The notes below the pieces were generated by a model. The model was not told the DNA's origin. It did no database searches and saw only the letters and a program-made list of their open reading frames with translations. Shown here piece by piece: positions 13,558 to 28,591 of a stretch of DNA of 29,561 bases. The DNA comes from Gryganskiella cystojenkinii (taxonomy: Eukaryota > Mortierellomycota > Mortierellomycetes > Mortierellales > Mortierellaceae), in the NCBI GenBank assembly GCA_015852425.1, contig JAAAIG010000444.1:1-29561 (forward strand). The letters run 5' to 3'. The position numbers were made by a program, and so were the translations under genes. Every line of letters begins with the position of its first letter. Position 1 is the stretch's first letter.

Positions 13558-14785
13558 CTACGCCACAACACTCGATGGCTGTTCCTGTAATGACTGTAAA
13601 CGCAAGATATCCTTCTCTAGATTCACCAGTTTGTGTTGCACCGTCGCCATCATCGCCACGTCTTCCAGACCTAGTAACATCCAAGGGAGAGAGAAATGAT
13701 GGTAAACAAAGTCAGGTTTCTTTGATGGGCATAGTAGCAACATGGACGATTGTTCATCAAACTGATCAATATTTGAAATCCTGCGCCTCATGTTGTCTTT
13801 GAAGCTTGAAGAAAGATTCGCGCGTGTTTTTTTTGTACCTTGCTTGAATGCAGTCTGAGCTGTGCGTAAGGATCCTGGGACAAAGACACCAAACCAGAGC
13901 AAAGGATCCGGATTACGTTCTTTTTTCTTGCTTGTCGTCTTCGATGACAGCGTCGATGATGGCGATGAGAATACTGAGTCGACATTGGAAGTGGGAGCCG
14001 TTGCCTTCTTCTTGCGATCATCATCCTCATCGTCCTTGGCAATGTTTTGATCCTGCTCAACGAGGCTACTTGTGCTACTGCTGGTGTTGCCGCCACGTCT
14101 CCTCAATCCTGATCCAATCTGTCCATTGTTGAAAAGGTCGGTATCAGTCTCGGACTCTTGTTCTGGTTTCTTTCCTGAATCTTGCGCTTTCAACTGCTCC
14201 TGTGCTTGTTCTTGTTGTCGCCTCTTGACCAGCAAGTCTTGAATCCGCACTGTGTCTTTTTCCACAGAACTAACAGAGTAAACAACGAAGAGGTTTCGAC
14301 GCGCGGTTAGCGAATAAGAACTCTTTGCCGAGAATATCCGAACAAGTAAAGACGAACAAATATAGGTCAACGAAAGAAAACCTACACGCCTCGAAGTGCC
14401 TTCATCCGAAGATCATAACAATCCGCAGAGACGTTCCTGGGACCCATGACATATTTCGCCTGCGAGATCTGCTCGCGTCCCTATATATATTTCAATAACA
14501 TTTAGACCAATTAACATGTAAGGGATCCGGTTTTCAGAAGTTGGCTCAAAAGCGACTGACGACTCTCTGCTTTGAACATATATTTACCTCCTGGAACTTT
14601 TCAGAGATGCGGGTCCAAGCAGAGTGATAGTCTTGGACGAGCGTCATGTACAGTACGACTAGCTGATCGAGTTCCTTGTTAATGGAATCAGCATTGGTGT
14701 CATGACCATCAGTCCCTTGAGAATGTCGTTGTTGCCGCTGTGTCTCCTCCTCCTTCTGTTGGTGTTGGCCCTGGACATGCGGCAT
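13558..14785 (-). CDS. VMA22: V-ATPase assembly factor, Vma22/CCDC115-like
   Basis: Vma22 works with Vma12 and Vma21 at the ER to assemble the membrane sector of the vacuolar proton pump; the human counterpart is CCDC115. Exons on the minus strand are 14785–14588, 14480–14386, 14269–13839 and 13670–13558, giving 278 residues. The second donor is GTAGGT, chosen over an overlapping GTGTAG because only it keeps phase. Residues 37–66 form the first helix (LDQLVVLYMTLVQDY, then WTRISEKFQE). About 67–97 carry QAKYVMGPRNVSADCYD. The family signature DPLLWFGVFVPGSLRTAQ lies at 219–236 and is followed by a C-terminal helix LEKDILRLQSL. Between them about 100 residues of Gln/Ser/acidic linker make the protein longer than its roughly 180-residue relatives. 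The third intron has a length of 3n and no in-frame stop. Assignment rests on the two conserved ends and their spacing. Confidence 0.85.
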
Positions 14786-23306: not shown

Positions 23307-24887
23307 CTATAAAATCAACGCGCTTTCTTGTTCTTTATTCTTCTTCAGTAACCGATCCATCCGATCCTGATCCTCTCTTTCCTTCATCTCGAAACCCGAC
23401 AGATCTCTCAAAGCTGGCCAGTGATTTTCGACCCAAGTAACCTCATCGCTCGACCATGGAATCCTGGCAAAACCTTTCCCATAAGGAGGTCCACAAACTA
23501 TCTGGAGTCGTCCAAGTGTCCGCAACTGATCCAGATCCTCGGACAACGTGAATCCCAATTGCGCTGCACCCGTCTTCTTGAACTCGAAAATATTCAACGT
23601 CAGGGCTTCCAGTTTCACCAGTTTCGAGAGCCGAGACATGATCATCGCGGATGGAGACGACGGCGATGGTGGCTGAGGCAGCGGCGAATTCAGTTCAAAC
23701 CCCAGGTAGAGAAACCGAAGGTTTTCGCAGACCCAAGGTCGGTTATCGTTTAGGATATCCTCAGTCGCGATTTTTCTGGCATGCAGGATCTCAAGTTTGG
23801 GTAGAGAACAAAGTATCTCCTGGATAGCGGAACCCGGTAGCTCATCAGAACCCTGCACTTTCAAAACGCGGAGCTGGGTCAACATCATGGGCACATTCTG
23901 AAGCGCTCTCCAACTGTCCAGACTGAACAAGGTTTCGTTTAAATCCAGCTCGACTAATCTGGGCATCGATTCTGCCAAGACTTGAAGATCCTCGGGACAG
24001 AAGGGCATACCTTCCAACTCTAGGGACTCGAGCTTGGGCCAACCTTGACCTCCAGATCGGTATTCGTCTGCTAAATACCGCATGGGTGCCTCTGCGGGGT
24101 CGTCTAGCTTGGAGTACCATTCGAGGCGGAGCAGGTCTGGACACTGTCGGATGACCCAGAGATGCGCCAACATGATTTTCTCGCCGTAATCATCCTCTCC
24201 GCTCCGGATCGAGAGCTCTTGAATTTTGGTAGATCCACCAACTCGGGCTGACAACTGTGTAAGCTCTGACTCTGAGGGTGGGTGATACGGAAACGCGACC
24301 TCGTCCTCTGAACAGAACCAATAGCCTTCAAGCGTGAGGATCTTGAGACGGGACCAGACTTTTTCGTACAGTTCTTGCCAGAGACCGTTCTTGTCCAGGA
24401 ACATGTCCAGAGACTTGAACCGGGCTAGGTTCTGACAAGAGGCAATGGCCCGTAAGAGTTCCTCCGAGATCGAGCCACTGATCATCAACGAGATGGAGCG
24501 TAGGGTGGGATGACGACGTATAAAAGGCAAGACCAAGTCAACGTTGTTTGGACAGTGGCTCCACGTGAATTCCTTAAGTCCGGGACAGGTTAGGTTGGTG
24601 ATGTCTGGGTGAGTGAAGTCACCGCGGACTTCAAGCCGGCGGATGAAGGCAGAGTTTTTCTCGATCTTGGGTACGTCCAGGGTCTTTGACGGTAACAGCA
24701 ATACCACGTTGGACCAGAGGAGAGGGGACAGAGTCTTGTGCCAGGATTTTGAAACTTGTGTACTGGCAAGGAGAGCTCGCCTGGGTAACCATCGACCAAT
24801 TGCAGAGAGGATCTCTGGAATGGCGAGGGGATCGAGTCCGTTGATATGTTTTCCAAGGATGGATGCAGTCTCGTGGATGAGAGCCAT
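23307..24887 (-). CDS. F-box/leucine-rich-repeat protein, 526 residues
   Basis: A probable SCF ubiquitin-ligase adaptor. The frame is open upstream to 25223, but homology and context favour the ATG at 24887 (MALIHETASILG); the upstream codons run through a decayed copy of the same gene. The F-box is at residues 18–60: LDPLAIPEIL, then STQVSKSWHKTLSPLLW. LRR-type segments follow through the rest: LTCPGLKEFTWSHC, HPTLRSISLM, SRLKILTLEGYW, CPDLLRLEWYS, WPKLESLELEGMPF, MPRLVELDLNETL, LTQLRVLKVQG, LPKLEILHARK and LENLRFLYLGFEL-like text. A short Pro/Ser loop interrupts one repeat, and the C-terminus is a charged helix. It has no introns. It is the only intact member of a three-copy local cluster. 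Many fungi of this kind carry large families of such genes; specific substrates are not predictable. Confidence 0.88.
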   Translation of the reverse strand: MALIHETASILGKHINGLDPLAIPEILSAIGRWLPRRALLASTQVSKSWHKTLSPLLWSNVVLLLPSKTLDVPKIEKNSAFIRRLEVRGDFTHPDITNLTCPGLKEFTWSHCPNNVDLVLPFIRRHPTLRSISLMISGSISEELLRAIASCQNLARFKSLDMFLDKNGLWQELYEKVWSRLKILTLEGYWFCSEDEVAFPYHPPSESELTQLSARVGGSTKIQELSIRSGEDDYGEKIMLAHLWVIRQCPDLLRLEWYSKLDDPAEAPMRYLADEYRSGGQGWPKLESLELEGMPFCPEDLQVLAESMPRLVELDLNETLFSLDSWRALQNVPMMLTQLRVLKVQGSDELPGSAIQEILCSLPKLEILHARKIATEDILNDNRPWVCENLRFLYLGFELNSPLPQPPSPSSPSAMIMSRLSKLVKLEALTLNIFEFKKTGAAQLGFTLSEDLDQLRTLGRLQIVCGPPYGKGFARIPWSSDEVTWVENHWPALRDLSGFEMKEREDQDRMDRLLKKNKEQESALIL

Positions 24888-25049
24888 TATTGTACATGAA
24901 AAGGGAAATGATGCAATAAAAACAAAAGAATGGAGGATGTGGAGGACGTTCAATTGAAGGAATGCGCGTTTGGTTTTGCATGGAAGAGAGACAGCAAAAG
25001 AATCCAAAAATAAAAGTGCGGCGCGTTTTAGCGGCTCTCCATACCAGGG

Positions 25050-25985
25050 GCTCTGGTTCTTTATTTTCACGCAGAAACTGATCCTGATCCTTTCGATCAC
25101 GACCCACCCTCTCCTTGATCTTAAAGCCTTTAAGAGTGCAAAGATTGATCCAGTGATTCTCGACCCTAGTAACCTCATCGCTCGACCATGGAACGGTCGT
25201 GGTCCACCTGAGTAAAGGTCCATGAATCCTTTAGAGTCGTCGAAGGGTCCGCATCTGATTCAGTTCCTCGGCCAAGGTGAATGCCAGGGTTTGATGTCCG
25301 TATGTCATGTGGACCTCGGTAGGCCAAGTCGAGGATCTCTAATCTTGATAGTTTCGAGAGAAGAGAGTCGGACAAGGATCATATCTGAGATGACGCCGGT
25401 GTTAATGACGACAGCGATGGCGACGTAGATGAACGCGATGATGACGTTGATGAAGGGCTCCCAAGCCCTGGCTCCAGTCCAGTAATAACGTCATTCTCGG
25501 TTCTCTAAGGTCTTTACACACCCAAGGTCGATCATCGTTCTGGATATCCTGACAATGAATCACCGTCATGGATAATCGAACCTGGCAAGTCGTTTTTCCC
25601 TGCATGGGCCTCGTACGCTCGAACGCTGGAGTCTTGCCAACATTCCAGGCATTCGTTGGTGTTGACCCCGGCATAGCTCAAATCTAGTTTCACTACTCTT
25701 GGCATGAGCTTAGTCAAGTCCGCAAAGTCCCTCGAGGCGGTGTCACATACCCGGCAGCTTGTGGGATTCGAATCTGGGCCATCCTAGACCTTTTCCTCCG
25801 GATCGGTACTCGTCAGCCAAATGCCGCATGGGAGGATGGTCAAGATCCTCTTGCGCGAAAGCCCACAAGAGTTGAACAAGATCCGTTCACTACTTGATGA
25901 TCCAGAGGAGAGACTTTAGAATGCTGTCGCTATTCACATTATCACGGCATCGGATCGAGATCTCCTGAATCCGAGCTGGACAGAC
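25050..25985 (-). pseudogene. Frameshifted, 5'-truncated F-box/LRR copy
   Basis: Nucleotide text matches the 3' half of the intact gene at 24887–23307. For example, the 26-nt stretch giving PWSSDEVT-like codons near 25165–25190 recurs almost unchanged at about 23430–23456. Translated pieces in shifting frames include LMPRVVKLDLSYAG (intact: MPRLVELDLNETL), DDRPWVCKDL (intact: NDNRPWVCENL) and, near 25790, the ADEYRSGG block. The pieces are in the same order as in the intact gene but in different frames, with stops. The left boundary matches the C-terminus; the right fades out around residue 240 of the intact protein. The F-box half is missing, so it cannot act as an adaptor. Confidence 0.8.
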
Positions 25986-26322
25986 GACTCGGACTGAGGA
26001 GGACGACGATGACGATGAGAACGACGCGTTGAGCTCAGGCATAAATCACCCACAAAGCTTACACAATCTGGTGGAGAGAAATCCAAGGAAAAGTAGCAAA
26101 AGGCGCCCTCCGGACCAGAATCTGGTATCAACAACAGTCACCTATGTGTCCAATCTGCGAACACCCGACCAAGACCACTTGTTCTTCCTCTGTCATATTA
26201 TAATACCACGTTACGGGTTTGTCCCAGAGTCAGGATAACAACAAGGGGCGAAAATTTACGAAGGCAAGAGAGTGAGATCAAATTTACTATTGAAAAAGAA
26301 AAAAAAATGGATTCGCGATCCA
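25986..26322. other. Gap between the F-box relic and the N-domain paralogue
   Basis: No gene is recognised. The left end holds a simple GA/GAC-rich patch near 26000–26030 where F-box similarity is lost. I looked on the minus strand here for any ATPase remnant belonging to the truncated paralogue at 26742–26323 and saw none. Confidence 0.45.
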
Positions 26323-27235: not shown

Positions 27236-28591
27236 TCAATCGCACGGATACAGAACCTCCTCTCTTGATTCAAACATTTGGTCGCCGACCATGCGTCTTC
27301 TACGTATAGGAATGGATTTGCCCTGCATGATACGAGTGACGTTCTCGGCAACATCTTCGATAAATGCATACTCGAGTCCCTGTGGCGTTCGTGTAATATT
27401 GATCACCACATCGAATATGGGACGTGTGGTACGCTGAATGACAACTTTTTTACCATCAACTGCAACCCGATCCGAAACAAGAGCCTGAGTTGCTCCACCG
27501 AGAGCCTTGTTCAACATTGGGTTAAACACTAGATCTTGAATGTTGCCATGAACAGAAGCCACCATCTGGATGGACCTCAGTGCGATGGTCTGGCATACTT
27601 CCACCTCGTCCTTGGTGTTCAGCTCATCGATCGCGATGACATCCGGTGAATGGTTTCTTACACAGTCGAGCAGAGTTGCATACTGTTTGGCAGGGTCCAC
27701 GGGTCGAAAGACTCTTGAAGTGCCGACAATATGAACCTTGTCTTGTGCCTCGCCGCAGACCTCGCCGGACGTGTCAATCAGACACAGACATTTACCACGG
27801 GAGAGGTACTTGCAGATCTCGCGAAGGGTTGTTGTCTTGCCGACATTGGGAGAGCCACACAAAAGAACATTCTTGTTCTCGACAAGTCCGTCAAAGATGG
27901 GCAAAAGCCCCGACACACTCCGACCGACTCTGACAGTGATGCCTGTGATGGCGCCGTCATATGTCACAGCCGCCAGACGATGCAGGGTCTTTCCAAAGAT
28001 GACACGGTTGCCTTGCTTGAAGTTTGGTCCGCCTCCGGGCAGCTGTTCCAACATTGTGGAGATATCGGACTCTTCGATTAGTCTGTTGAACTGAATGCAT
28101 TCGCCATTGATCTTGACAAACAGGTTGGATCCCACGTCAAGAAAGATGTCTGTGGCTGCTGTGTCCTCCAAATCCAGATGCTCGGTGGCAATCTCACCGA
28201 GCATATCTATAATGGCGTCCATGTCGCAGCCTACAGTCAGAGGAGGGACCGTCACTGTCCTGTTAACATGGGATGAAGTTGTGTGTACGGCTGAGGTGGA
28301 TGGTACCGTCGTCGCCATCTTGACTTGAGGAGCCGGAGGTCTTGGGACCGGGGGAGGCGCCGGCGCCGCCTGCGTTTCAAATGCCTTTGTGAGCACGACC
28401 TGGCTATTTTTGTGTGTGAGCTGAAGATAACCAGTGGATTCAACAATCCGTGTGAGGTTTTTGCGGGTTGCAACATTTCGCTTCTGAAGTGCCTTTAGGA
28501 AGACGTCAGCTGTGATCTTGGTCTTGTCCTTGAAGCATATTTTGGCTGCAGCTTCAATTGCGGCTTTCTCCTCTGGTGTTCCAAGCAGCAT
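27236..28591 (-). CDS. SpoIIIAA/Ycf45-like P-loop ATPase with novel N-terminal domain
   Basis: A RecA-like ATPase of the secretion-ATPase group. Its closest known types are SpoIIIAA, which energises the sporulation channel in Bacillus and Clostridium, and Ycf45 of cyanobacteria and plastids. One intronless frame gives 451 residues. Walker A is GSPNVGKT at 246–253, followed by TLREICKYL. LIDTSGEVCG is at 271–280, Walker B VIAIDEL at 318–324, and SVHGNIQDLVFNPML at 346–360 matches the family HGN motif. LHRLAAVTYDG…ITVRVGR at 203–223 matches the strand block before the P-loop. FDVVINI near 393 closes the core. Residues 1–70 form a small helical domain that I do not recognise; a Pro/Ala linker (about 73–90) joins it to the rest. 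No organelle signal or membrane segment is evident. A partial paralogue lies downstream. The cellular role in a fungus is unknown. Confidence 0.88.
   Translation of the reverse strand: MLLGTPEEKAAIEAAAKICFKDKTKITADVFLKALQKRNVATRKNLTRIVESTGYLQLTHKNSQVVLTKAFETQAAPAPPPVPRPPAPQVKMATTVPSTSAVHTTSSHVNRTVTVPPLTVGCDMDAIIDMLGEIATEHLDLEDTAATDIFLDVGSNLFVKINGECIQFNRLIEESDISTMLEQLPGGGPNFKQGNRVIFGKTLHRLAAVTYDGAITGITVRVGRSVSGLLPIFDGLVENKNVLLCGSPNVGKTTTLREICKYLSRGKCLCLIDTSGEVCGEAQDKVHIVGTSRVFRPVDPAKQYATLLDCVRNHSPDVIAIDELNTKDEVEVCQTIALRSIQMVASVHGNIQDLVFNPMLNKALGGATQALVSDRVAVDGKKVVIQRTTRPIFDVVINITRTPQGLEYAFIEDVAENVTRIMQGKSIPIRRRRMVGDQMFESREEVLYPCD

Follow-up and report, generated by a model that had tools for sequence, protein, structure and literature searches.

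A Ycf45/R3H-ATPase family motor with a predicted winged-helix N-terminal domain in the fungal family Mortierellaceae

The 29,561-nucleotide stretch analyzed here (hereafter, the window; contig JAAAIG010000444.1 of assembly GCA_015852425.1, forward strand) derives from Gryganskiella cystojenkinii, a member of the Mortierellaceae according to the NCBI taxonomy. It carries on its minus strand, at 27236..28591, an intact single-frame gene that runs from ATG to stop and encodes a protein of 451 amino acids (aa). The sequence comparisons leave little doubt that the motor portion of this protein (approximately residues 123–434) belongs to the Ycf45/R3H-ATPase family, which is a branch of the PilT/VirB11-type hexameric motors. 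What is new is a fungal subfamily that spans the Mortierellaceae, together with its altered architecture and a winged helix predicted at its N terminus. We consider it about an even bet (probability approximately 0.5) that a gene of bacterial or plastid type was acquired once, long ago, then underwent domain swapping and duplication, and now encodes a hexameric nucleic-acid-handling motor, a function that we infer.

Profile searches, tblastn, and alignment agreed on a Ycf45-type ATPase. The first-pass annotation had arrived at the same type from an open reading frame whose boundaries, strand, and length were exact, and from the motifs GSPNVGKT, IDTSGE, Walker B, and HGN, all of which were located in the 451-aa protein. 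The score against Pfam PF19568 (Spore_III_AA) was 30.6 bits, above the gathering cut-off of 27, whereas the score against NCBIfam TIGR02858 (SpoIIIAA) was 50.4 bits (E = 1.8e-13), far below the equivalog cut-off of 281.3. SpoIIIAA proper was rejected on this basis, and the SpoIIIAA part of the earlier label had to be dropped, even though the protein resembles SpoIIIAA in its PF19568 match and in having the same four motifs (as given in a section of PMC2703783). The missed cut-off separates the target from SpoIIIAA and not from the Ycf45/R3H proteins, because the cyanobacterial, Thermus, and Chloroflexi members also reached only 70–105 bits with TIGR02858 (3/3 scanned). The tblastn search against plasmids returned an R3H protein of the cyanobacterium Scytonema (E = 8e-33), a Thermus protein (1e-27), and Deinococcus proteins (9e-21 at best); the VirB11 rows had values of 2e-3 or worse among the matches listed (40 of 73). 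The VirB11 model TIGR02788 was not reached (30.2 bits versus an equivalog cut-off of 249.95), and the general AAA model PF00004 exceeded its cut-off (24.5 versus 21.2 bits) for a protein whose bacterial relatives match it too. VirB11, PilT, and AAA+ were rejected by sequence as the true family, VirB11 and PilT matching far worse than the R3H ATPases; the better fit to PilT or VirB11 that the annotation had allowed for did not materialize, and similarity to the VirB11, PilT, and DotB secretion and pilus motors was marginal.

The fungal motor and the bacterial Ycf45/R3H ATPases were homologous along their length at approximately 30–35% identity, and a fungal profile found a match in 9/9 bacterial genomes, with the best ones at 170–192 bits. 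Relatives were encoded in at least 577 stretches of prokaryotic genomes; together with the E value of the Scytonema plasmid match, this number speaks against a chance resemblance. The best 80 of these, with phyla taken from the NCBI ranks of the record titles, comprised 56 Chloroflexota, 8 Melainabacteria (Gastranaerophilales), 3 Atribacterota, 3 Armatimonadota, 1 each of Myxococcota, Bacillota, and Cyanobacteriota, and 7 without a phylum. The first-pass view of a family linked otherwise to bacterial sporulation, cyanobacteria, and plastids was thus too narrow: Chloroflexota prevail among the best 80 loci, and a table in PMC3087521 places YCF45 among the genes of cyanobacterial ancestry in two plastid-lacking protists, Phytophthora ramorum and Naegleria gruberi. 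Because of that table, presence of the family in eukaryotes lacking plastids is not new as such. A scan of viral contigs with two narrow peptide patterns yielded no relative.

Like the bacterial R3H ATPases of Ycf45 type, the fungal protein contains the whole motor module with four catalytic boxes and the TLHR and RVGR blocks. In a structure alignment of 42 of the 76 fungal proteins with 16 bacterial ones, K252, D273, E277, D322, E323, H348, and G349 were invariant; the roles of the Asp, Walker B, and His box motifs are those assigned in the pertinent section of PMC2703783. The Asp box reads IDTSGE in the fungal protein versus D[TS]SNE in the three bacterial rows aligned. The two architectures differ outside the motor. 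Most of the bacterial proteins fetched were about 500–600 aa long, and the long forms scanned (2/2) possessed PF25516 and R3H domains after the motor, whereas the fungal protein ends after the motor. PF25516 had no match in the target protein or elsewhere in the G. cystojenkinii genome, and the Pfam scan detected no C-terminal R3H domain in the target, as had been read from its sequence at the outset; a PIN domain ahead of the motor likewise was without a match in the target at E ≤1. The N-terminal winged-helix-like domain and its linker, in turn, belong to the fungal protein and set it apart from the bacterial R3H ATPases. One short relative, encoded on a Thermus plasmid (P0078), has neither PF25516 nor R3H (the only short form of the three scanned) and has in common with the target the motor module, of which alone it consists (310 aa, 29% identity); in contrast to the target, it has no N-domain, adjoins a conjugative transfer gene, and sits on a long tree branch.

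The gene is at home in a fungal genome. On the same contig, a useful eukaryotic marker is provided by a Vma22/CCDC115 gene at 13561-14412 on the minus strand (44.6 bits, cut-off 28), and two further window open reading frames (ORFs) have F-box-like matches that remain under the cut-off (17.2 and 22.0 versus 24.3 bits). The fraction of G or C at third codon positions (GC3) is 0.55 for the target gene and 0.47–0.57 for six other window ORFs, including the 139-aa copy described below. Searches of fungal proteins returned 74 homologs at E ≤1e-3 and, by alignment search, 76 at E ≤10, the window's own protein included. These 76 consisted of that protein, 58 from Mortierellaceae, 1 from Apophysomyces, and 16 without an organism name. 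Nine genera, all placed in the Mortierellaceae by the NCBI listing, carry homologs (Mortierella, Linnemannia, Podila, Dissophora, Gryganskiella, Haplosporangium, Entomortierella, Actinomortierella, and Modicella), and six of the Mortierellaceae homologs (P0005, P0030, P0051, P0055, P0058, and P0067) reside on contigs of 1.3–3.4 Mb. Contamination was rejected on the strength of the fungal neighbors, the GC3 value, a second copy on another contig, and these nine genera, and we regard it as very unlikely. A fungal nuclear gene with other fungal members, as had been proposed, is therefore what we have, and the contaminant contig that was considered at the time did not turn up. The sole named homolog outside the Mortierellaceae among 59 came from Apophysomyces ossiformis (P0028; Mucorales), on a contig of 81.5 kb. 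It nested among Mortierella and Linnemannia sequences (78% to Mortierella sp. GBA35), which points to contamination of that assembly or to transfer.

The target contig is one of at least two in the 35-Mb genome (C491 and C177) that encode this motor. The second full-length copy, of 489 aa, lies on C177 (56,159 bases) and is letter-for-letter the same as G. cystojenkinii BGZ83_002613 (P0015); it shares 72% identity with the target in the 58-protein structure alignment and 86% over the tree columns. A third copy of 139 aa is found directly downstream of the target on the same strand. What it retains is the N-domain with its Pro-rich linker and the first few motor residues, after which a stop intervenes, and no motor remnant was detected downstream of that stop. 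The regions upstream of the target and of this short copy have a 31-base stretch in common (29/31 identical). Because no stand-alone N-domain protein was found at E ≤10 among 17 candidates searched, the 139-aa copy has the appearance of a duplicate in decay.

Substitution rates in these copies differ between the two parts of the protein. For the two full-length paralogs, the ratio of nonsynonymous to synonymous changes (dN/dS) was 0.08/1.74, or about 0.05, in the motor and 0.45/1.20 in the N-domain; the 139-aa copy compared with the target N-domain gave 0.51/1.04, consistent with an open frame that is weakly constrained. These ratios are rough because dS is near saturation. By this sequence measure, the motor is under strong purifying selection and the N-domain is held much less tightly. 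With a dS of 1.68, the two full-length copies are not recent. In a fungal tree of 46 of the 76 proteins, drawn without support values, copies from the same species often clustered (G. cystojenkinii, D. globulifera, A. ambigua, E. parvispora, M. alpina, and P. epicladia). This clustering suggests repeated duplication within lineages, although strain copies or gene conversion could look alike.

The first 70 residues had been called an unfamiliar domain. This description stands insofar as the N-domain had no family match at the Pfam cut-off, and it falls short in that the predicted structure is that of a winged helix on a flexible linker. The model of the domain shows the order helix-strand-helix-helix-strand-strand, and its structural matches include winged helices, protein-binding ones among them. 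The turn and third helix are often basic (R38 in 41/44, R43 in 34/44, and R48 in 32/44 proteins). When the whole model was submitted to Foldseek, the best match was 5f4h (13–14% identity), which we take to be PINA, the archaeal branch-migration ATPase. PINA differs from the target in having a PIN domain where the fungal protein has its winged helix, and it was not among the 13 sequence matches of the target. An excerpt of PMC8775617 describes PINA as promoting the branch migration of Holliday junctions.

The origin of the gene was approached with a 59-row tree that held 11 of the 76 fungal proteins, 45 of the 134 bacterial loci (L011–L144), and 3 plasmid proteins, and no SpoIIIAA or plant, algal, or protist YCF45 rows. 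The 11 fungal rows grouped in a single clade (100/100), and the stem leading to it measured about 9.5 changes per column. Four long rows (P0078, P0079, L081, and L021) were dropped for a second tree and for topology tests; the drawn root of that tree divides the fungal stem into parts of 5.6 and 4.4. The unforced tree placed the fungi beside Atribacterota with support of only 67/99. When the fungi were forced to be sister to cyanobacteria, to Gastranaerophilales, to the L088/L142/L144 type, or to a Chloroflexota sample, the p-values of the approximately unbiased test (p-AU) were 0.37, 0.34, 0.42, and 0.40, respectively; none of the four bacterial sister groups was rejected because the fungal stem is so long. 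Donor identification failed accordingly, with p-AU of 0.34–0.42 for every sister group tried.

Several accounts of how the gene arose have to be weighed against the one we favor. A bacterial contaminant or a non-functional relic is very improbable: nothing speaks for contamination, and the truncated, less constrained tandem copy that recalls a relic stands next to a gene whose motor has a dN/dS of about 0.05 and whose kin recur on other contigs and across genera. More credence is due to old eukaryotic inheritance of a YCF45 of plastid or cyanobacterial type, kept by few or no fungi beyond the Mortierellaceae. The protist genes tabulated in the part of PMC3087521 cited above, the very long fungal stem, and the clade of fungi plus cyanobacteria that the topology test allowed would all be at ease with such a history. 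It would need many losses, however, because Apophysomyces was the only named relative outside the Mortierellaceae in the exact-word protein searches (E ≤10), and for this reason the comparisons tilt the balance towards a late acquisition and away from an ancient branch inherited widely across eukaryotes; we rate old inheritance as unlikely. Since these searches scored only candidates having exact words in common with the query (7997 and 7998 scored), the absence of eukaryotic kin at about 35% identity is not demonstrable by them, and bacterial relatives were returned by neither search. SPD1 is a plant Ycf45 homolog. For 44 early-diverging fungi, portions of PMC11291939 report rather low transfer rates and post-transfer duplication as the main source of Mortierellomycota xenologs, without mention of the present family.

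Our favored account would run as follows. In a single event, an R3H ATPase gene of bacterial (or plastid) type would have entered a Mortierellaceae ancestor; its C-terminal part, which binds nucleic acid, would have been lost, and the N-terminal winged helix would have taken over recruitment. The hexameric ring would use ATP to move or remodel nucleic acid and not to drive secretion, with DNA a more likely substrate than RNA, as with PINA. Later, repeated duplications within lineages would have let the N-domain diverge, with the motor remaining almost unchanged. We favor nucleic acid because of the R3H domain in the bacterial forms and because PINA is the probable structural neighbor, and the step from fold to function is one that we infer. 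A rival of the same family and origin would have the motor act on proteins or membranes, as a repurposed assembly or traffic ATPase with the winged helix as a protein-docking module, like that of cullin WHB or COP9 subunits. Several observations speak for this rival. The top rows of VIA-align 2 were of the PilT, DotB, PilB, CpaF, GspE, and VirB11 types, and 5f4h ranked 23rd (50 rows were listed, and a family missing from them proves nothing); the R3H-less relative on the Thermus plasmid belongs to a run that includes a conjugative DNA transfer gene and a transglycosylase gene; and both this neighborhood and the PilT similarity would suit traffic. SpoIIIAA is reported to serve a secretion complex (in a section of PMC2703783), and protein-binding winged helices are among the structural matches of the N-domain. 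On the other hand, the turn and the third helix of the N-domain are basic for the most part, the bacterial R3H forms often lie near dTMP kinase and some near replication genes, and no pilus, secretion, or spoIIIA operon partners were present among the six window ORFs scanned, a genome-wide search for partners not having been made. We consider a traffic role rather unlikely. A more specific form of the nucleic-acid account, in which a bacterial R3H ATPase was captured once, its R3H domain was swapped for a winged helix, and the product is now a nucleus-located, multi-copy hexameric translocase of DNA or RNA, is conceivable but tentative. If true, this would place a PilT/VirB11-superfamily motor in eukaryotes outside their organelles, one in which a fast-evolving address domain is joined to a motor that has hardly changed.

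In public annotation, one Linnemannia homolog is labeled "putative protein ycf45", and three homologs from the jgi source are labeled "stage III sporulation protein SpoIIIAA". Our literature search found, among the matches listed, no paper on a fungal member of the family and none on the role of the R3H-type motor. This motor type is nevertheless widespread in the two phyla sampled with the fungal profile, with matches in 183/194 genomes in the phylum of the L088 genome (titled cyanobacterium) and 57/61 in that of the L085 genome (titled Bacillota). A fungal version that is free of R3H and has intact active sites would make the motor testable apart from photosynthesis and sporulation, and it extends the set of bacterial-type genes known from Mortierellaceae by one that is family-wide, duplicated, and domain-swapped. 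The features of the gene are collected in Table 1.

Table 1. Coordinates in the window of the fungal ATPase gene, its parts, and the adjacent truncated copy.
Feature	Position	Strand	Basis or remark
Complete coding sequence, fungal Ycf45-type ATPase with N-terminal winged-helix-like domain	27236..28591	-	451 aa + stop
N-domain, residues 6-67, helix-strand-helix-helix-strand-strand, predicted winged helix	28391..28576	-	structure model
Pro/Ala-rich linker, residues 75-105, mostly very low model confidence	28277..28369	-	pLDDT <50 at 75-79, 81-100
N-terminal part of motor module, residues 109-234, TLHR and RVGR blocks common with bacteria	27890..28267	-	alignment, model
Walker A GSPNVGKT, residues 246-253, K252 invariant	27833..27856	-	motif and alignment
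Asp box IDTSGE, residues 272-277, E277 invariant	27761..27778	-	motif and alignment
Walker B IAIDE, residues 319-323, D322 and E323 invariant	27623..27637	-	motif and alignment
His box HGN, residues 348-350, H348 invariant	27542..27550	-	motif and alignment
Truncated tandem copy, 139 aa	26323..26742	-	sequence comparison

Next to the truncated copy, the minus strand at 25300-26000 contains, as judged by eye, fragments similar to the F-box-like ORF at 23307-25259 but no long open frame; this region is perhaps a decayed duplicate as well.

Around the bacterial R3H ATPase genes, 80 loci with longer flanks revealed dTMP kinase in 39, pdxS in 17, pdxT in 16, a cyclic-di-AMP receptor in 12, guanylate kinase in 8, and holB in 6; these counts are rough lower bounds because one representative per cluster was scanned and the flanks were short. 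A gene of ~335 aa was found upstream on the same strand in 36/80 of the longer loci and 54/122 overall (e.g., L055 1985-2989), and one representative of it had no Pfam match at E 1e-5 and no NCBIfam match at E 1e-3. The PF25516 domain, which carries the description "phosphotyrosine protein phosphatase", is located between the motor and R3H (400-477 in P0077 and 379-456 in the L011 protein). On a Thermus thermophilus plasmid (L009 1-4840), the R3H-less Ycf45-type ATPase follows genes for type IV secretory conjugative DNA transfer and a transglycosylase, and may take the place of VirB11 there.
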